Shown in pieces: positions 26,997 to 45,260 of a DNA stretch of 64,000 bases. The notes below the pieces were generated by a model. That model worked only from the letters and a program-made list of their open reading frames with translations. It was not told the origin of the DNA and did not search any database. This DNA is from Bdellovibrio sp. SKB1291214. Lineage in GTDB: Bacteria > Bdellovibrionota > Bdellovibrionia > Bdellovibrionales > Bdellovibrionaceae. The stretch lies in assembly GCF_002209355.2 (NCBI RefSeq), contig NZ_CP106855.1:248001-312000 (forward strand), written 5' to 3'. The translations under genes and the position numbers were made by a program. Numbering within the stretch: position 1 is the first letter of the stretch; every line of letters starts with the position of its first letter.

Positions 26997-27453
26997 CTGC
27001 AAATTTTTACTCCAGATCTATTTGCTGAACACTTGCTGTGATCGTTTTCACTTCCACGAAAATTCCCATTCACTCTTTGTACGAGTGACAACAAAGTCGA
27101 CCTTTTGCCAGGATTCCTAGGTGGAAGATTCTCAAAATCGCTCCGCAACTTGTTTGATGAAATCGTCAAAAAGTTCTTCAAATTCGAGGAACTTCCTAAA
27201 AAAACACAGACTTATCCCTAGTTCTCAAGAAATATTTCCCTCAAAACGTCCAAAATGTTGACGACTGAAAATTATTTTTTCTCTGTAGTTCAACATCACA
27301 GTCTATGATTTCAATACTTTACCGCGCCTCAGAATGAAACCGTTTTTAGATAGAAAAACAAATTCACTAGGTTGCGGGTTATTTCAGTTTTGTCACTAAT
27401 TGAACGAAACTGATTCCATCACGAACATGGTGGGGCTCAGGAGGGCAAACCGT
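26997..27453. other. Long AT-rich leader region before the envelope-machine operon
   Basis: About 450 bp without a convincing gene; an 80-residue minus-strand frame lacks coding character. A small TCACTC/GAGTGA stem lies at about 27069-27088. Close to the operon, TTGCGG (27372-27377) with CACTAA (27395-27399 area) could be a weak promoter, and CAGGAGGG (27438-27446) is a strong ribosome site for ATG 27454. The length suggests regulatory input but no site was recognised. Confidence 0.4.
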
Positions 27454-28506
27454 ATGATCAATCAAATCGCTCGCAAATCAGTAGTAGTTGCTTCAGCAAT
27501 CTCAATGCTAGCTGGTTGCGGAAAAAGCGGAGGAACTTACTCGATCCTCGCTGATTCAGATTCTTACAAGCAGGAAGCTGTCTACGTTCCTAAGAAAATC
27601 GATATCCTTTGGGTGATCGACAACTCAGGTTCCATGAAAACATCTCAAGACAACTTGGCTGCGAACTTCCAGTCCTTCATCGCTCGCTTTAATCAAAACA
27701 ACAGTGACTTCCACATGGCTGTGGGTACAACTGATGCTTGGGAAAAACAATTCAACTCGTCTTCTGAAAAAGCAAGATTGAGAGACGGTACTGGCGCAGT
27801 TGGTTCTTCAACTCGTTCTGGTGTTTACGTCATGGATAAAAACACTCCGAACCTAAGCCAAGTTTTCGTGACTAACGTTAAGCAAGGCATTAACGGTAAC
27901 GGTGACGAACGCGCTTTTGAAAGTATCAAACAGATTCTTCAAGATCCGTTCAATGCAGGCTTCCGTCGTCCAGACGCAACACTTGCAATCATCATCGTAT
28001 CTGACGAAGAGGACTTCTCTCAGTCAGTAAGCACTTTCAGCGAAAGCTATACGAATAACAAATTGTATCCCGTGCAAAACTATATCGACTTCTTGGACAC
28101 TTACACGGGCGGTACGGCTAACGGCAGAAACTACTCTGTTTCCAACATCGCGATCCAAGACACTGCTTGCCGCGATCAATTGAAAACTGATAAGTTCCCG
28201 ACTCGCTACCATGACATCACTAATAAAACTGGTGGTATCAACGGTTCATTGTGCTCCAACTTCGGCGCAACTTTGGAATTGATCTCTGATTCAATCATTC
28301 AGTTGTCGAGCTCTTTCAAACTTAGTCGCGAACCGGTTCCAGAATCGATCGTAGTAACTGTTGATGGAGTGACTGTTGCTCAAGATGCAACAAACGGCTG
28401 GACTTATGACGCTGCAACTTTGACGATCACTTTCCATGGCAGCTCAGTACCGAACGCGAACTCTAATGTGAAAATCAACTTCGATCCGAAATCGATCATT
28501 ATCTAA
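27454..28506 (+). CDS. vWA-domain lipoprotein heading the Glt-like operon
   Basis: The 350-residue product has a lipoprotein signal with an SMLAGC lipobox, then a von Willebrand factor A domain (about residues 50-260) whose metal-binding MIDAS motif DNSGSM is intact (strand IDILWVIDNSGSM) and whose strand DATLAIIIVSDEEDFS supplies a later MIDAS Asp. A C-terminal beta domain follows (about 275-350). vWA domains bind protein partners through a metal ion. ATG 27454 fits the signal and follows AGGAGGG. It lies 15 bp before the GYF-PilZ gene and is probably the first gene of the operon running to 39973. It could act as an outer-membrane or surface adhesin part of the machine. Confidence 0.8.
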   Translation: MINQIARKSVVVASAISMLAGCGKSGGTYSILADSDSYKQEAVYVPKKIDILWVIDNSGSMKTSQDNLAANFQSFIARFNQNNSDFHMAVGTTDAWEKQFNSSSEKARLRDGTGAVGSSTRSGVYVMDKNTPNLSQVFVTNVKQGINGNGDERAFESIKQILQDPFNAGFRRPDATLAIIIVSDEEDFSQSVSTFSESYTNNKLYPVQNYIDFLDTYTGGTANGRNYSVSNIAIQDTACRDQLKTDKFPTRYHDITNKTGGINGSLCSNFGATLELISDSIIQLSSSFKLSREPVPESIVVTVDGVTVAQDATNGWTYDAATLTITFHGSSVPNANSNVKINFDPKSIII

Positions 28507-28520
28507 AAGAGGATTGTGTA

Positions 28521-29141
28521 ATGGGTGGGGAACAATCTGCAGCACAAAATCTTGAGCAATGGTACATCCTACGTGGGGACATGAAATATGGTCCCTACGA
28601 GTACAGATCCATGATCTCAATGATTCAAAATAGCGAGCTTCAAGACTACAACTATGTCTGGGCTCCGCATCTAGAAAACTGGACTCTGGTGGGAGAGCTT
28701 CAGGAATTCTCTAAAGACCGCTTGGCTCGTCTGATCCAAACTAAGGATCACTTGTCTGGCGCCTTTATCGAGAGAAAATACCCACGTAAAGATTTGCAAA
28801 CTGGGATTTATGCTCACAATGATCAGTCATTTTTTGACGGCCATACTTTGAGCGTGAGTGAGAATGGGGCTTTGGTTCTGTTGAACGATCCTCTACTCTA
28901 CCTAGGTCAAAAGATTATGATTCATTTCAGAAAATCTGAAGTAAATCCTGTAGAATTTAATGTTCTATGTGAAATTGTCCGAAAGAATTATTCGAAACAA
29001 AGATTAAACGTGAAATCCGGTCTGCACTACGCTGTTCGTTTCCTCCAAGTGCCTGAGATTGGTTCGACTCAATTAACTAAATGGTCTCGCGGTGGCGGTT
29101 CCAAGGAGGAAACAAATGGCATTCTTAAAGTTCATGAATGA
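28521..29141 (+). CDS. GYF-domain plus PilZ-domain cytoplasmic protein
   Basis: The 206-residue protein is a two-domain fusion. Residues about 10-60 (WYILRGDMKYGPYEYRSM ... WAPHLENWTLVGEL) match the bacterial GYF_2 fold, which binds proline-rich peptides. Residues about 85-195 match PilZ, a c-di-GMP receptor, with RKYPR (the RxxxR motif) and SVSENG in place of the usual D/N-x-S-x-x-G. No signal peptide or membrane helix, so it acts in the cytoplasm. It overlaps the TolQ-like gene by 26 bp, which implies coupling. In Myxococcus the GYF domain sits inside GltJ, so this looks like a rewired regulatory input. Confidence 0.82.
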   Translation: MGGEQSAAQNLEQWYILRGDMKYGPYEYRSMISMIQNSELQDYNYVWAPHLENWTLVGELQEFSKDRLARLIQTKDHLSGAFIERKYPRKDLQTGIYAHNDQSFFDGHTLSVSENGALVLLNDPLLYLGQKIMIHFRKSEVNPVEFNVLCEIVRKNYSKQRLNVKSGLHYAVRFLQVPEIGSTQLTKWSRGGGSKEETNGILKVHE

Positions 29142-29823
29142 ATCTGGCGTCGTTGGCTGGTTGATTCTACTAACAGGCATCGGTTCATTGGTACTAGTAG
29201 CAGAGCGTGCGAAAATGCTCTACAAAGAGTACGGTATGAATGTCGATGAGTTCATGGGTAAAATCCAAAATCTTATCTTGGCAAAGAAACACGATGAAGC
29301 TTTGCTTCTTTGTGCACAACTTGAGAAAAAGCCACTTGCTGCAGCCTTCAAAACGATCCTTGAAAAAGCTGATCGTGATGATGACACAATTTTCCAAGCA
29401 CACGATATCGCAATGGCGGAAAACGTTCCATTGTACACTAAACGCCTACACTATCTTTCAATGCTAGCCAACGTTGCTACGTTGATGGGTCTTTTGGGTA
29501 CTATCCATGGTCTTATCCTTTCGTTCCAAGCCGTTGCTTCTGCAGACCCTGCAATGAAACAACAATTGTTGGCGCAAGGTATCTCCGTTTCCATGTATAC
29601 AACAGCGTTGGGTCTTGCGGTTGCGATCCCTGCGATGGTGTTCTTCTCTATTCTGACTTCTCGTCAAAATGAGTTGATGGAAGAAATGATGGAAAAATGC
29701 GGTAAATTGGCAGAGTTGCTAACTAGCGCACACGTTCCAAACCTTTCTCGCCAAAACGTATTCCCAGACCATGTTGCTGCACCAGCGGTAACTCCTCCAT
29801 CAGCTCCAGGTAAGGCTTCTTAA
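29116..29823 (+). CDS. TolQ/ExbB/MotA-family proton channel subunit (AglR-like)
   Basis: This family forms the pentameric channel around TolR/ExbD dimers that converts the proton gradient into work. The 235-residue protein has three membrane helices (about 10-30, 115-140 and 155-180) with the typical ANVATLMGLLGTIHGLI and GISVSMYTTALGLAVAIPAM motifs. ATG 29116 follows AAGGAGG; the longer frame from 29092 overlaps the previous gene more deeply and lacks such a site. Two TolR-like genes follow, the same order as AglR-AglQ-AglS of the Myxococcus gliding motor. Confidence 0.9.
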   Translation: MAFLKFMNESGVVGWLILLTGIGSLVLVAERAKMLYKEYGMNVDEFMGKIQNLILAKKHDEALLLCAQLEKKPLAAAFKTILEKADRDDDTIFQAHDIAMAENVPLYTKRLHYLSMLANVATLMGLLGTIHGLILSFQAVASADPAMKQQLLAQGISVSMYTTALGLAVAIPAMVFFSILTSRQNELMEEMMEKCGKLAELLTSAHVPNLSRQNVFPDHVAAPAVTPPSAPGKAS

Positions 29824-29880: not shown

Positions 29881-30426
29881 ATGAGACGCGGAAAAAAGAT
29901 TAAAATTAATCATAACAGTGAGTTCGAGTTAGACTTAGCTCCTCTACTTGCCGTAATGGTAAAACTAGTACCTGTTCTGTTACTATCATCAGCATTCGTG
30001 CAAATGATGGTGATCGAAACTGAGCTTCCCCAAGTTGTTGCTGAAGCAATTCAACGAAATGACCAAGAAAAAACTCCAACTCTAGTCGCTATCGAAGTTG
30101 ACCCTAAAGAAGGTTACACAATCGTGGTGACTAAAGCTGGCAAAGAAAACACAGAATCAGTTCCTCTAAAAAACGGAACATATGATTTGCCTTCTCTTCA
30201 CCAAAAATTGGTTGAAGTAAAAAAAGCCAATCCTGAAGTTTTCAAAATTGAATTAAATCCTGAAGCAAAAGTTCCATACAACGACATCGTCAAAGTTATG
30301 GATGAAGCTCGTCAGGCGCACGATAAGACAGTGACTTTCCCTGTTTTCGATCCAAAACAAGGTAAGAATGTCGAAACTAAGTATATGTTTCCAGAAGTTG
30401 TCTTCTCGAACATGATGGAGGGCTAA
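29881..30426 (+). CDS. TolR/ExbD-family protein lacking the channel aspartate (AglQ-like)
   Basis: The 181-residue product has one membrane helix (about residues 20-43) and a periplasmic ExbD domain with YDLPSLHQKLVEVKKANPEVFKIELNPEAKVPYNDIVKVMDEAR, typical of TolR. In the helix, LDLAPLLAVMVKLVPVLLL aligns with the ExbD pattern NVTPFIDVMLVLLIIF so that Ala24 stands where the proton-carrying Asp should be; a Lys (28) follows four residues later. It probably pairs with the next protein, which keeps the Asp. It is 57 bp after the TolQ-like gene and 1 bp before its partner. Confidence 0.85.
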   Translation: MRRGKKIKINHNSEFELDLAPLLAVMVKLVPVLLLSSAFVQMMVIETELPQVVAEAIQRNDQEKTPTLVAIEVDPKEGYTIVVTKAGKENTESVPLKNGTYDLPSLHQKLVEVKKANPEVFKIELNPEAKVPYNDIVKVMDEARQAHDKTVTFPVFDPKQGKNVETKYMFPEVVFSNMMEG

Positions 30427-30427
30427 C

Positions 30428-30925
30428 ATGGCACGCCGCCGCCCGTACGAATTACCAAAACAAAAATCAACTTTCGGTCTGAATATCACGTCGATGACCG
30501 ATATGTTTACGATTCTTCTGGTGTTCCTACTTCAGAGCTATTCAACTTCTCAAGTTGAAATAACTCCGGAGAACAATTTGCGTTTGCCGACTTCGGCTAC
30601 AACTGCAAATCCCGTGGAAGCCGTTAAGATTTCTTTATCGAAAGATGCTTTGAAAATCGATAAGGATAAAATCGCAGACGTTAAGGATTCAGAATTCTTA
30701 GCGCAGGACCTTGAGTCCACAGACGCGAACTTTATTAAACCTTTATTCGAAAAACTGGACCACATGGCCAAAAATTCAACCGAAAAGGAAAAGTGGGTAA
30801 AAGAAGGAAAAATTCTTTTGCAGGCTGATAAAGACCTCCCTTACGCGACTCTTCGCAAAGTGATGTATACAGCATCAATGGCAGGCTTTCCTCAGTTGAA
30901 ATTGGTGACAATGGTCGGAGAATAA
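30428..30925 (+). CDS. TolR/ExbD-family protein with conserved channel aspartate (AglS-like)
   Basis: The 165-residue product has a basic N-terminus, a membrane helix (about 20-40) starting NITSMTDMFTILLVF in which Asp25 occupies the ExbD/TolR proton-binding position, and a periplasmic domain of about 110 residues ending in a PYATLRKVMYTASMAGFPQLKLVTM motif typical of ExbD. It is separated from the previous TolR-like gene by one base and from the TPR gene by four. Together with the two genes upstream it makes one energised motor. Confidence 0.9.
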   Translation: MARRRPYELPKQKSTFGLNITSMTDMFTILLVFLLQSYSTSQVEITPENNLRLPTSATTANPVEAVKISLSKDALKIDKDKIADVKDSEFLAQDLESTDANFIKPLFEKLDHMAKNSTEKEKWVKEGKILLQADKDLPYATLRKVMYTASMAGFPQLKLVTMVGE

Positions 30926-30929
30926 CATT

Positions 30930-33900
30930 ATGAAGCTGCACACACTTACGATCATTCTGGCTATTCATTTATTCTCGTTGTTGTGCTTTGCAGAAAAGAA
31001 TGAAAAAGGACTTATCCCAGAAGTCCGTATGTCTAACGACGAAGGCGAAAACGAAAAGAAAGCTCTGCGTTCTGAGTTGATGATAACTCGCTCAGAAAAC
31101 AAAGCGATCGAATCCCTTCAGTCAGTCATCAAAAAAAGCAAAGGCTCAACGAATGAGGCGGACCTATGGTATCGCTTGGCTGAGCTTTACATGCGCCGTT
31201 CTAAGTCCGGTCGTTTCTTTGACTTGAACCGTGACAACCCGATGATGAAACTTTCTCCATTCCCTATTCCGAATGAGAAGGGTTCTGAATCCGTTAAGCG
31301 CGCGATGAAAATCTATTCAAAAATTGAATCAGATTTCCCAAAATTCCGTTACATGGACGAGGTTTTGTTCAATAACGCCTTCGCTCACCAACAAGTGGGT
31401 CAAATGAAGGGTTCTCATGAACTTTACCAACGTCTTTTGACTCAATTCCCAAAATCACCACTTGTACCAGACGGTACATTGGCTTTGGGTGAATTGCTTT
31501 ACGAGCAAGGTAAATTTGCCGCGGCTCTAGAGCAATTCGAGCGCCTTGAAAAATTCCCGAACAGCCGTGTTTATTCATACGGTATGTACAAAGCTGCATG
31601 GGCTTGCTACAACATGCGTGACAGCGAATGCGGCATCAGAAAACTTGTCCAGGTTGTAAAAAACAATCCTGCACTTCAAGACGGTGAAGTGCCTACAAAC
31701 CGCCACAATCTTCGTAAAGAAGCTTTGCGCGATTTGACAATCTTTATTGGCGACTCCTACCCTGCAAGCAAACTTTATTCATTCTTTGAGGACATCACTT
31801 CTGGTGAAGAACTTGGTGAAGCGATGATGAACCTTGCGAAACTTTATGATTCGCACAGTCGTCAAAAAGAAATGAATATCTTTCTTGAAGAATACATCGA
31901 GAAACAACCATCTGGTCCAAATGTGGTTAAATCCCATTTGCTATTAGTTGAGGCCAACGAAACGCTTAAAAAACGTGACTTAGTATTAAAACATTTAACT
32001 TTCGCGTCTGACCTTTGCCGCTCTGATTCCTCTTGGAAAAAGGACCAAAAGAAAGACGACATCACGACTTCATGTGAGGAAGGTTTCCGTCGCACAAGCC
32101 TTGATATGGCTAAAAAATGGTGGGAAATCTGGTTGAAGAACAAACAAAATACTGAGTTCTCGAACCTAACTCAACAGTTGTTCAAATTGATGCTTGATAA
32201 CGAAGATCCTAAGAAACCGGATTTGAAAACTCGTTTTGCCTATGCAGAGCTTTTATTCCAACTAGGTAAATTCGACGAGGCATCTGCTCAATATAAAATT
32301 GTCGGCGATAAAACGACTGACGATATTATGAAGCACGATGCAAATTACGCTGCCCTATTCTCTAAAGAGAAATCTATCGAGAAAAAGTCTGAGCCTTTGA
32401 AAGAAGCTGAGCGTAAAGAACTGGCTGCAAACTATTTGGCGAAACATCCAAACGGCAAATATGCAACAGCAGTCAAATTCAAGATCGGTCACATTGCGTA
32501 TGAAGAAAATAATTATCCAGAAGCTGAAAAATGGTTGAAACCTTTGACGACGATCAAAGGTAACGACGAGATCCGCAGAAAATCTGAAGACTTGGTGTTG
32601 GATATGCTTAACATCAAGAAAGATTATGTGGGTATTAAAGAGTTTTCGAAACAGATCGCAAGCTCTACAGCGGATGCTTCACGTAAAAATAGCATGAACA
32701 AGATCCAGGAAGAGGCGCACTTCACTGAAATTCAGGAATTCGCTAAAACTGGTGACAAAGATCAAGCTGCACAAAAACTGATCGCTTATGCAAAAGAGCA
32801 TGGCAATTCGAAACTATCTCAAGATGCTTTGTGGCAAGCTATCGGTATTCTTTATACTGAAGGCAAAGTATACGATGCAGCTGAAATGTCTTTGAAATAC
32901 GTGCAAAAATACCCAGAAGACAAAAAGAATCTGGATGCATTGAAAGACGCTGCAAAAGCTTATGCAGACATTGGTCAAACTGCGAAAGCAGCGGACACCT
33001 TGGCTAAAATTGCTGAACTGGATAAAAAAGGCCGTAACCAATACTTGGAAGCTGCTGCTGATATCTATGTGATGGAAAAACGTGTGAAAGATGCTCGCGC
33101 TTCTTACATGGGCATTTTGTCTTCCGCTGACAGCAAAACAACAGAGCGCATTTACGGTAAACTTCTTGATTCCTACAAGAACGAAAAGAAATCGCCTGAA
33201 TACGAAAAGCTGCTGAACCAAATCTCTGCTAAAGGTATCGAACCTTATACCACAGAGGCCATGATTGAGCGTGCTCAAAGCTTGTTGGATGCTGGTAAAA
33301 TGACAGCAGCATTCGATCTTTCCATGAAAGCGAATGGTCGTTCGGTTCCTGCTGAAACTCGTGCCGCTGCCCGCTTGATCCAAGCATCAGTCCTGGAAAA
33401 AGAATTTATTTCTCAAAGCGTGAAAGCACGTGAAGAAAAATTCGCAACGGTTCTTGCGATCAAAACTGAAAAGCTTGATAAAGCGCAAACAGCATTCGTA
33501 ACAGCTTTAAAGATGTCTAAAGATCCATATCAACAGTTGGAAGCTTTACGTGGTATTGACCGCGTGTATGGCAACTACATTGATTCTTTGACATCAATGC
33601 CACTTCCGGCTTCTTTAAGCCCCGACGAGCAGAAACAATTGCGCGGCGAGCTTGCGAAATTGACCGACCCTATTGCTGATAAGAAAAAAGACAACGATGC
33701 GAAGTTGAAAGCCTTGGCGGCAACTGTCGGCCAATCGGCGACGACGACTCGTGCTTATTCAAGTATCAGCGTAGATAAAACGATCACGCCCATCGCACAA
33801 TTCCCTACTCCGGATAAATTGGGTGTGTTCCTTCCAGCATCGTCAGATATGACGATTGGTAAGGTGTCTCGTTATGAGATTCGTCCAAATAAGACATGCA

Positions 33901-34640
33901 ACAAAACTGCTGTAATGACTGGTGATATCGCAAAAGTAAACACTTTCGAAGTTGCTGGAAATTGTTATGGTTCTAGACAGTTCGACATCGTTGAAAAACT
34001 GGGTCTAGAGCTCGCTAAAGCGAAAGAAACCAGAGCCCTTGGTTTGTTCTATGCAAGCGTAGGTGCTGAAGGTAAAGGTTATAACGACAAAGCGATGTGG
34101 TTAATTGATGCTGCATTGAAGGCTCAACCTGAAGCGTCTCCTTATGTTTATCAAAAGGCTCGTTTGACATATAAAGAAGATGGCATCAAATCCGCGATGC
34201 AATATTTCGAGAAGGTTTTGGACATGCAAATGCCTTCGACAGAAATGGAAACTTTCGCTGGTGTGAAGGCTTTCTCAGAGGGAGATTTCTCTCGAGCTGT
34301 CGAAAAATTTTCTACACTCCAAAAAGATCAGTTGTATACTTTAAATGTGGGAACGCTTTTGAGTGAATCATATGCTCAAAAGGGTCAGGTCGATAAAGCT
34401 CTGGCAATGGTCAAAGATTTGATCGCTGCTAACAAGAAAGACAATGTCGACTACCTTCTGGAACAAGCTCATATCCTTGAGACTTTCAAAGGAAGCCCCA
34501 CGCTAGCGTTGGATTCCTATGAAAAGGCATTCAAAGCCAGCAGCGCGCAAGCAGATTTGCGTGAATGGTTAAGCAAGAAAATTCAATTTATCAAAAATCA
34601 AAACAAAGTCGGTCAGCACGTAATCTCGGGAGACTTGTAG
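30930..34640 (+). CDS. Large periplasmic TPR protein of the Glt-like machine
   Basis: The 1236-residue protein has a signal peptide (cleavage near LLCFAEK) and is otherwise mostly tetratricopeptide-type helix pairs, for example FNNAFAHQQVGQMKGSHELYQRLL, GELLYEQGKFAAALEQFERL, IGILYTEGKVYDAAEMSLKYVQKYP and AEKWLKPLTTI, spread from about 60 to 1230, with a short non-TPR beta part near 950-1010 that carries two cysteines (KTCNKTAVM and VAGNCYGSRQF). In the Glt system such proteins (GltD/GltE/GltI) span the periplasm and link inner and outer membrane parts. It follows the TolR-like gene by 4 bp. Confidence 0.85.
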   Translation: MKLHTLTIILAIHLFSLLCFAEKNEKGLIPEVRMSNDEGENEKKALRSELMITRSENKAIESLQSVIKKSKGSTNEADLWYRLAELYMRRSKSGRFFDLNRDNPMMKLSPFPIPNEKGSESVKRAMKIYSKIESDFPKFRYMDEVLFNNAFAHQQVGQMKGSHELYQRLLTQFPKSPLVPDGTLALGELLYEQGKFAAALEQFERLEKFPNSRVYSYGMYKAAWACYNMRDSECGIRKLVQVVKNNPALQDGEVPTNRHNLRKEALRDLTIFIGDSYPASKLYSFFEDITSGEELGEAMMNLAKLYDSHSRQKEMNIFLEEYIEKQPSGPNVVKSHLLLVEANETLKKRDLVLKHLTFASDLCRSDSSWKKDQKKDDITTSCEEGFRRTSLDMAKKWWEIWLKNKQNTEFSNLTQQLFKLMLDNEDPKKPDLKTRFAYAELLFQLGKFDEASAQYKIVGDKTTDDIMKHDANYAALFSKEKSIEKKSEPLKEAERKELAANYLAKHPNGKYATAVKFKIGHIAYEENNYPEAEKWLKPLTTIKGNDEIRRKSEDLVLDMLNIKKDYVGIKEFSKQIASSTADASRKNSMNKIQEEAHFTEIQEFAKTGDKDQAAQKLIAYAKEHGNSKLSQDALWQAIGILYTEGKVYDAAEMSLKYVQKYPEDKKNLDALKDAAKAYADIGQTAKAADTLAKIAELDKKGRNQYLEAAADIYVMEKRVKDARASYMGILSSADSKTTERIYGKLLDSYKNEKKSPEYEKLLNQISAKGIEPYTTEAMIERAQSLLDAGKMTAAFDLSMKANGRSVPAETRAAARLIQASVLEKEFISQSVKAREEKFATVLAIKTEKLDKAQTAFVTALKMSKDPYQQLEALRGIDRVYGNYIDSLTSMPLPASLSPDEQKQLRGELAKLTDPIADKKKDNDAKLKALAATVGQSATTTRAYSSISVDKTITPIAQFPTPDKLGVFLPASSDMTIGKVSRYEIRPNKTCNKTAVMTGDIAKVNTFEVAGNCYGSRQFDIVEKLGLELAKAKETRALGLFYASVGAEGKGYNDKAMWLIDAALKAQPEASPYVYQKARLTYKEDGIKSAMQYFEKVLDMQMPSTEMETFAGVKAFSEGDFSRAVEKFSTLQKDQLYTLNVGTLLSESYAQKGQVDKALAMVKDLIAANKKDNVDYLLEQAHILETFKGSPTLALDSYEKAFKASSAQADLREWLSKKIQFIKNQNKVGQHVISGDL

Positions 34641-34654
34641 TATGGAGGGTACAA

Positions 34655-34903
34655 GTGAAAGCTTTCATCCAATTGATGACAGTTTTTCTTCTTCTGGGGT
34701 CGACGACTGCACTTGCTAAAACAAGAACAGTCCGTAAAGTCCAAGAAGTCAATTTTGGTGACATGAACCTCAAGGGTACAGTTCGAAACCCTGATGGCGC
34801 ATATCTAGTACAAAAACGCGGTATCAAATTTATGCCGTTGTATGACGTACAAAAAGATATGGACGGCCGTATCAGGGAATCAGCTCTGTACTTGAATAAC
34901 TAA
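34655..34903 (+). CDS. Small secreted protein of the Glt-like operon
   Basis: An 82-residue protein started by GTG 34655, with GGAGGG (34644-34649) six bases upstream; a longer frame from 34565 would begin inside the TPR gene. It has a signal peptide (VKAFIQLMTVFLLLGSTTALA) and a 60-residue mature part with VNFGDMNLKGTVRNPDGAYLVQKRGIKF. The VNFGDxxLKGxxxxPxxxxLxxR pattern recurs in small proteins next to AgmX-tail proteins in Myxococcota-type clusters, where the equivalent (GltF-like) is periplasmic. The role is unknown. Confidence 0.78.
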   Translation: MKAFIQLMTVFLLLGSTTALAKTRTVRKVQEVNFGDMNLKGTVRNPDGAYLVQKRGIKFMPLYDVQKDMDGRIRESALYLNN

Positions 34904-34925: not shown

Positions 34926-36386
34926 ATGATCACGTTGATTGTACGTCAGTCCTTAAAGAACGGGACTGCAAAAACTTGGAAATTAAGACCAGCAAATACA
35001 ACACAAACATTCGGCTCTTCTCGTCTTGCTGACGTGATCTCTATCGCCCCAGCGACGAAAGGAATTCAAGGCGTTTTTGAATTCCGCGATGGTCAATGGT
35101 TCTATGTCGATATGGATATGGCAACATCTAGTGGATTGAAAAAATCCCCTGCTATTGCATTGAATAAAGATACGACTGTGACATTGGAAGATTGCACTTT
35201 GCAGTTCGATCCGATCAAAAAGGATGCAGACCTCTATGTTCGTCTGGAAAACGCCGGTCGTGACGAGTCTGTTGGTGGCAAGAAATTTCAACTTTATTTA
35301 GTAAAACAAAACGGCAGAGTCTTACAGACTAAGATGTTGCCGATGAACAAAACGTTCAGACCGGATTTCTCAAACCAAGAAGTGACATGCGTTCCTTCAA
35401 CGGAATGGCACCGTCAAACAGTTGGTGACGTTGAGATCTCTCAAAAAACGCTTTCTATGGAAGATGCGGCCGCTATGGGACGTTTTAATACGTCGTCTAT
35501 GGTGGACGAAGACTCTAAAAAGGGCGTCTTTTTAGTATTGGGTGCTGCTGCACTTTTCATCACTGCAGCTTTGTTCGGACCTAAGTCTGACATTCACTCC
35601 GTAGCAGCTGTGGAACCGCCGAAGGTCGCGCAAAAAATCATCGTGAAAACGGAGATTAAACCTAAGCGTAAAAAATCCGAAACGCCTAAACAGCAAGTGG
35701 TTCAACAAGCTGCTCCAGCCGCAGGTCCAAAAGCAGAAATGCCGACTGGTGGTGGTGGCGGTAAATTGGCTAACATGATGAAGTCGATCTCTGACGGTCG
35801 TATTTCTAAATTGATTGGCAAAGTTTCCGCGCAAGGCGCTAAAAGCGCCAACGTGATGTTCGCTCAAGGTGTTAAAGCTGGTTCCGGTCCTTCCGGTCGT
35901 GGCTTAGCAGCCGTTGGCAACATCGAGCGTTCTGGTCGTGACTGGGGTGCTGCGGGTAATGGCAGTGGTGTGCTTATTTCTACGAATGGTAAAGGTGGCG
36001 GTAAAAACGCTTCCGGCATGGGTGGAATGGCCGCTGGTGGAACTGGTAATGCCGGTGTTGGTTTGATCGAAGAAGAATCTGAAATTACTGGGGGCTTAGA
36101 CCGTGAGGTTATCGCTCAGTATATCAAATCTAAATTGGGTCAAATTCTTTACTGCTATGAAAGACAATTGAGTGCGAATCCAGATTTGTTCGGTAAGGTC
36201 GCTGTTAAATTTACGATCGGTGGTACTGGTCAAGTTGAACAACAGATCATTGGCGATACAACTTTGAAAAACTCAACTGTTGAAGGCTGTATTTTGAATC
36301 GCGTAGCCGCATGGAAGTTCCCTGCCCCACAAGGCGGAACACGCGTGCTCGTAACATATCCATTTTTGTTTAAAAGTACCAACTAG
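34926..36386 (+). CDS. FHA-like transmembrane protein with AgmX/PglI (TonB-like) tail
   Basis: The 486-residue protein has an N-terminal cytoplasmic domain (about 1-120) with the strand order of an FHA domain but without its SxxH phosphopeptide signature, one membrane helix (about 200-217), a Lys/Pro-rich and Gly-rich periplasmic stretch (about 225-385), and a C-terminal domain (about 392-486) with QYIKSKLGQILYCYERQL and two cysteines, matching the AgmX/PglI tail found in GltG and GltJ. Such tails reach outer-membrane partners like TonB. It is thus the likely energy transducer of the motor encoded just upstream. Confidence 0.85.
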   Translation: MITLIVRQSLKNGTAKTWKLRPANTTQTFGSSRLADVISIAPATKGIQGVFEFRDGQWFYVDMDMATSSGLKKSPAIALNKDTTVTLEDCTLQFDPIKKDADLYVRLENAGRDESVGGKKFQLYLVKQNGRVLQTKMLPMNKTFRPDFSNQEVTCVPSTEWHRQTVGDVEISQKTLSMEDAAAMGRFNTSSMVDEDSKKGVFLVLGAAALFITAALFGPKSDIHSVAAVEPPKVAQKIIVKTEIKPKRKKSETPKQQVVQQAAPAAGPKAEMPTGGGGGKLANMMKSISDGRISKLIGKVSAQGAKSANVMFAQGVKAGSGPSGRGLAAVGNIERSGRDWGAAGNGSGVLISTNGKGGGKNASGMGGMAAGGTGNAGVGLIEEESEITGGLDREVIAQYIKSKLGQILYCYERQLSANPDLFGKVAVKFTIGGTGQVEQQIIGDTTLKNSTVEGCILNRVAAWKFPAPQGGTRVLVTYPFLFKSTN

Positions 36387-44860: not shown

Positions 44861-45260
44861 ATGCAGCTTGCGATGAGGAGTGAGTGCGTGCTGATACAAA
44901 AGCACGGATTTGTCTTTTGGTAGCAAAGTTAACATTGCTGAAGCTGAGACCATGGGTGACTGTCGAGTCACCCTGTTTTTTTTGTGTGGAGCGAACCACT
45001 CCGCGTAGGAATACGAAATCCCCTGCCGGGATTTGAAAGCTGACGACGACTTCGTCACCTTCGTTAAGCAGGTATTCCGAAATAATCGACATACCACCTT
45101 CACCGATTTCCCCTGAATCAACGATAAAATAAGAACCGTCACAAAGGACCCCTACTTTACGTTTCATCGTACGACGTGGATACTGGCGACGGAACCCGCC
45201 TGGTTTATCCTCGATCGTTGGAATGTTTATCTTTTGAAAGTCGCCTGCCATGGAATACAT
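44859..45260 (-). CDS. PilZ-domain protein
   Basis: The 133-residue product is a single PilZ domain, a c-di-GMP-binding effector fold. It has RQYPR (RxxxR) near residue 29, EIGEGGMSI as a variant of the D/N-x-S-x-x-G motif, and beta strands VVVSFQIPAGDFVFLRGVV and THGLSFSNVNF. I start it at ATG 45260 (or ATG 45251). The same frame stays open upstream to 45575, but that part is the translation of a tandem repeat (SRQPK units) and a GC-rich palindrome and does not look like protein. No good ribosome site remains, so its expression is in doubt. Confidence 0.75.
   Translation of the reverse strand: MYSMAGDFQKINIPTIEDKPGGFRRQYPRRTMKRKVGVLCDGSYFIVDSGEIGEGGMSIISEYLLNEGDEVVVSFQIPAGDFVFLRGVVRSTQKKQGDSTVTHGLSFSNVNFATKRQIRAFVSARTHSSSQAA

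Follow-up and report, generated by a model that had tools for sequence, protein, structure and literature searches.

A GYF domain and a PilZ domain are fused in one 206-aa protein whose gene adjoins aglR in an Agl/Glt-type motor operon of Bdellovibrio, and the protein appears to be a constant member of that operon across the family. The gene was found in the window, the whole stretch of 64,000 nucleotides analysed here from Bdellovibrio sp. SKB1291214, whose genome is a single contig of 3.68 Mb. We judge the chances about even that the product is a soluble cyclic-dinucleotide adaptor, in which PilZ would bind the nucleotide, GYF would grip the tail of AglR, and the nucleotide would switch or engage the motor. 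The features of the locus are given below.

27400..28506, + strand: VWA/MIDAS adhesin-like (CglD-like) lipoprotein gene, just before GYF-PilZ in most family loci
28521..29141, + strand: gene of the putative GYF-PilZ adaptor, 206 aa, counterpart of HD100 Bd1482 (ORF list, Pfam, relatives, synteny)
28560..28709, + strand: GYF_2 domain, residues 14-63; W14, GP24-25, Q36, W47 and W54 kept in nearly all relatives
28773..29078, + strand: PilZ domain, residues 85-186; R85xxxR89 and G116 kept in all relatives, S113 in nearly all, S111 in place of D/N
29103..29109, + strand: AAGGAGG ribosome-binding site of aglR, within the GYF-PilZ gene
29116..29141, + strand: overlap of GYF-PilZ and aglR, 26 bp
29116..29823, + strand: AglR-type TolQ/MotA/ExbB proton-channel subunit, 235 aa
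29728..29820, + strand: AglR cytoplasmic C-tail, residues 205-235, ending VTPPSAPGKAS, the proposed GYF ligand; PP at 29794-29799
29881..30426, + strand: AglQ-type ExbD/TolR (Pfam)
30428..30925, + strand: AglS-type ExbD/TolR (Pfam)
30930..34640, + strand: large Glt-type TPR protein with an apparent signal peptide (profiles, synteny)
34565..34903, + strand: CglF/GltF-like small protein; longest ORF, the true start probably lying further in (synteny)
34926..36386, + strand: GltG-like protein with an AgmX-type C-terminal domain; Pro/Lys segment past the membrane span (profiles)

Both domains scored above their Pfam cut-offs in the 206-aa protein, GYF_2 (PF14237) with 35.1 bits against 25.8 (E 1.1e-8) and PilZ (PF07238) with 40.5 bits against 22.5 (E 3.6e-10). 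The fusion at 28521-29141 that a preliminary description had read from the sequence is thus borne out. The translation likewise agreed with its account of the motifs, namely an intact RKYPR (R85-x-x-x-R89) followed by SVSENG as motif 2 (S111-V-S113-E-N-G116). The ATG of aglR is at 29116, preceded by AAGGAGG at 29103-29109, which gives the 26-bp overlap (29116-29141) with the TolQ-like, AglR-type gene that had also been described. The Agl/Glt-type order of AglR, two ExbD-type genes and then a GltG-type gene is present at the locus. At 20.4 bits the CglF/GltF-like assignment is under the model cut-off of 90 and is backed by synteny.

Conservation of the gene and of its neighbours was followed in the family and in the class. 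The GYF-PilZ protein was significantly matched in 66 of 66 genomes of the family (paralogues counted). The order VWA - GYF-PilZ - AglR - AglQ - AglS - TPR - GltF - GltG was seen in nearly all family loci examined, and persists even in those at which the GYF-PilZ protein is as little as 26-31% identical. Most genomes examined from other families of the class have a longer 2xGYF-PilZ protein in the equivalent operon, its gene either preceding aglR or standing between those of AglS and the TPR protein. In a handful of genomes (L158, L159, L168, L125) it lies apart from the three motor genes. The suggested tie to the motor genes therefore holds family-wide, and in the other families in the 2xGYF form. 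The matches in every family genome, the recurring operon order and two confident AlphaFold domains argue that the fusion is not a chance one. Given its family- and class-wide presence in the operon, GYF-PilZ seems to have long belonged to the Agl/Glt-type motor module.

In Bdellovibrio itself, 2xGYF-PilZ is a separate gene. The paralogue is solitary in the genome of the window (L091:7929-8765, + strand) and stands beside another VWA gene in HD100 (L061:4922-5749, - strand). In the complete genome G043, which has no A-type AglR, an orphan GYF-PilZ with intact motifs adjoins mazG (L049:9897-10454, - strand). This orphan, and the Bdellovibrio paralogue away from the motor in L061 and L091, would fit a plain c-di-GMP receptor that happens to lie in the operon and controls gene expression or some different process; the class-wide linkage to the motor and the GltJ-type GYF domain described below count against such a receptor, and we consider it very improbable.

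Further relatives were noted in the course of the survey. A second, diverged GYF-PilZ (L090:13565-14254, - strand; G000:C1, about 2.807 Mb) is encoded upstream of a different AglRQS-type operon, separated from it by an M14-peptidase-like gene, and the AglR of that locus has no PP tail. A small protein encoded at L095:7579-8025 (+ strand) has two GYF-like domains without PilZ. The contig L122, from a MAG named 'Streptomyces griseus', holds a Bdellovibrio-type VWA - GYF-PilZ - AglRQS operon and is probably a mislabelled bin.

The AlphaFold model of GYF-PilZ (31 sequences) had a mean pLDDT of 80.5, with both domains confident and values below 50 at the ends and in one loop only. When the PilZ part was compared with PDB folds, MotI/DgrA (5vx6) was the top match (Foldseek E 6.6e-6; VIA Z 14.4, rmsd 3.9, 107 residues), and c-di-GMP-bound PilZ domains came next. 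Within the PilZ part the RKNYSKQRLNVKSG stretch (residues 153-167; window 28977-29021, + strand) is strongly conserved and basic, and with low model confidence at 160-164 it is a possible interaction loop. For the GYF part, 7z3c, the GYF domain of Myxococcus GltJ, was the sole significant PDB sequence match (E 7.4e-7 with the family profile), and the parallel with GltJ that had been drawn earlier is upheld as its best match. Fold comparison also gave, at middling scores, the GYF-peptide complexes of GIGYF and Smy2.

Two domains of the related proteins were looked for and are absent. There is no PilZN-like domain ahead of PilZ as in YcgR/MotI, the N-terminal half being filled by GYF_2, and no AgmX-type C-terminal domain as in GltJ, the protein ending after PilZ (no NCBIfam match). 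GltJ (AgmX) thus has the same GYF type and belongs to the same kind of machinery, whereas the Bdellovibrio GYF is carried on a soluble PilZ protein in place of one with an AgmX-type C-terminal domain. MotI/DgrA and YcgR, the flagellar clutch and brake, are PilZ proteins that act on a MotA-family ring. GYF-PilZ differs from them in having GYF instead of PilZN, an altered motif 2 and a gliding-type AglRQS motor, and what links it to the ring is the genetic linkage and the AglR tail.

At the nucleotide site of PilZ, R85 and R89 of RxxxR and G116 are invariant in 112 of 112 relatives, and S113 is present in 105. SVSENG departs from the canonical [D/N]xSxxG at its first position, as do most relatives, of which 51 have S there, 46 E, 6 N, 4 Q and 3 D. 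A serine at this place is shared by two further PilZ proteins encoded in the window's genome. The motif-2 serine as a peculiarity of this gene was accordingly ruled out. Another PilZ protein in the window, at about 44895-45191 (- strand) in a 243-aa frame, has the altered motif 2 GEIGEGG. According to a review, D, S and G of [D/N]xSxxG touch the base and the pentose of the ligand (PMC7288161). With the core residues kept and D/N swapped, the PilZ half would be expected to bind its ligand with one base contact changed. Replacement of D/N in 103 of the 112 relatives could also mean that the PilZ half no longer binds nucleotide and that GYF-PilZ is purely a scaffold of the motor. However, a scaffold would have no need to keep R85, R89 and G116 unchanged, and S113 almost unchanged, across class-level divergence, and we hold this to be unlikely.

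Gliding of HD100 requires cGAMP made by Bd0367, an enzyme with S214 in place of the usual aspartate (PMC9140294). The genome of the window encodes a GGDEF protein with the same Ser at the Hypr specificity position (L323, G000:C1:1327926-1328399, - strand, ...NDGHDHLFGSYVL...). Because motif 2 is altered and HD100 gliding depends on the cGAMP of Bd0367, cGAMP is a real alternative to c-di-GMP, and the ligand of the PilZ half may be cGAMP instead. The fuller version of this idea, that GYF-PilZ is a receptor of 3',3'-cGAMP in which the swap of D/N to S/E lets the Bd0367 messenger switch the AglR ring through the GYF-tail contact, seems to us quite unlikely. No cGAMP-binding PilZ protein was found in the literature searched.

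As the target of the GYF domain, the preliminary description had suggested a Pro/Lys-rich segment of the FHA-AgmX protein, with the proviso that this segment is on the periplasmic side of the helix. The proviso was correct, and it told against the suggestion. The sole clear membrane span of the FHA-AgmX protein is at about 198-221, and the Pro/Lys segment is C-terminal to it and hence should be outside the cytoplasm; it was dropped as the most likely target. The cytoplasmic C-tail of AglR (...TPPSAPGKAS) is a better candidate. In the window AglR ends ...VFPDHVAAPAVTPPSAPGKAS, downstream of three predicted membrane regions. Proteins of the MotA/TolQ family have their C-tail in the cytoplasm, and given this topology the AglR tail is placed there.

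A PP within the last 20 residues was present in 67 of 71 GYF-PilZ-linked AglRs and in none of 40 other MotA/ExbB proteins, taken from six genomes of the same set and including two other motor operons. In the linked AglRs, PP commonly stands 7-9 residues before the end, with K-x-S after it. A larger set of 116 genomes that have an A-type AglR gave PP in 89, compared to 2.7 expected in shuffles, in almost every case 5-10 residues before the C-terminus.

The PP tail and GYF-PilZ also varied together. Of 109 genomes with GYF-PilZ, 88 had an AglR with PP and 21 an AglR without; where GYF-PilZ was absent, degenerate or not found, one AglR had PP and six did not (Fisher p 0.0006, relatedness ignored). 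The clearest case is G038, where the AglR directly after VWA has ...KLTELLTSHH as its end and both the tail and GYF-PilZ are missing; in G042 GYF-PilZ is deleted and AglR has the same tail-less end. PP is gone in four f9 genomes with GYF-PilZ degenerate or not found. In G221 and G251 GYF-PilZ is degenerate, R having replaced W47, and AglR has a short PP-less tail; this substitution was not relied on as proof of groove loss. In G247, PP is present and GYF-PilZ was not detected in a fragmented assembly, and the sister species have one. On the AglR-core tree, with about nine PP changes overall, the six PP-less genomes with absent, degenerate or undetected GYF-PilZ form two clades and thus represent just two independent losses of GYF. 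The 21 exceptions are mainly in family f7, with the 2xGYF form and basic, proline-poor tails, and include the single-GYF G029. PP is therefore not needed everywhere, and a strict requirement of the PP tail for GYF-PilZ is ruled out. In view of these exceptions and of the two loss events, the link between GYF-PilZ and the PP tail is suggestive, short of proof.

The retention of GYF-PilZ without a PP tail in these 21 of 109 genomes favours a motor adaptor whose GYF domain has some other target, the PP tail having a different role. Such a target might be a polarity protein, a further Glt protein or, in 2xGYF proteins, the protein's own proline-rich linker. The 2xGYF proteins do have a KPxxPP-like linker after GYF1. 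The GYF of Myxococcus GltJ is reportedly linked to the proline-rich tail of a polarity protein, which points the same way. On the other hand, the association of tail and GYF and their co-loss count against another target. AlphaFold shows the 2xGYF linker as unstructured and of low confidence, which leaves its intramolecular docking unsupported, and single-GYF proteins have no such linker. Taken together, another GYF target is possible but doubtful.

An orthologue with 78-79% identity is found, in the same order VWA - GYF-PilZ - AglR - AglQ, in a genome of the same genus (G003) that we take to be B. bacteriovorus HD100. The operon of both shares AglR/Q/S-type, CglF/GltF-like, GltG-like and TPR genes with the Agl/Glt gliding machinery and differs from it in being headed by the VWA adhesin and GYF-PilZ, with a separate gltJ reported missing. 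In the passage found, Hobley et al. 2012 place Bd1482, a PilZ gene, at the 5′ end of a gliding operon and regard it as a candidate receiver of DgcA signals (PMC3271064). As bd1480 carries the name aglQ (PMC9140294), the gene numbering fits the operon order, and the window gene is the counterpart of Bd1482. The link between PilZ and gliding is thus not new, this orthologue in the same operon and order having already been proposed in that passage as a receiver of the gliding signal. The passage presents Bd1482 as a PilZ protein only, and the GYF half is added here.

The literature searched held no relevant paper on GYF combined with PilZ, GltJ or gliding motility, and nothing on the GYF half, the AglR tail or the motif change of Bd1482. 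As far as that literature shows, the combination of GYF-PilZ with the AglR tail is new and its parts are known. Also apparently new, from comparison of the genomes, is the constancy of GYF-PilZ in one Agl/Glt motor operon family-wide, and of 2xGYF-PilZ likewise in other families. GltJ was reported absent from Bdellovibrio by Luciano et al. 2011 (PMC3169522), and GYF-PilZ may show where the GYF module of that 'missing' protein has ended up.

In the adaptor model, Bdellovibrionia would have GYF-PilZ as a standing, soluble, cytoplasmic part of one of their envelope motors, of Agl/Glt type. The nucleotide bound by its PilZ half would be c-di-GMP or 3',3'-cGAMP. The GYF half, of GltJ type, would hold the proline-rich C-tail of AglR, the MotA/TolQ-like subunit of the stator ring. 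Nucleotide binding would then alter the seat of the adaptor on the AglR ring, and the motor would be switched or engaged during gliding and prey exit, as MotI and YcgR do on MotA. Here we infer the binding of tail and nucleotide as well as the sign and size of the effect. The orphan GYF-PilZ of G043 without an A-type AglR, the lack of D/N in motif 2 and the placement of the motor genes elsewhere in a few genomes are points against the model. A cyclic dinucleotide is required for Bdellovibrio to glide out of its prey (PMC9140294), and no protein carrying this signal to the gliding motor has been shown in the literature searched. GYF-PilZ and the proline tail of AglR would together provide a direct route from signal to motor, and would extend the principle of the flagellar clutch to gliding motors.
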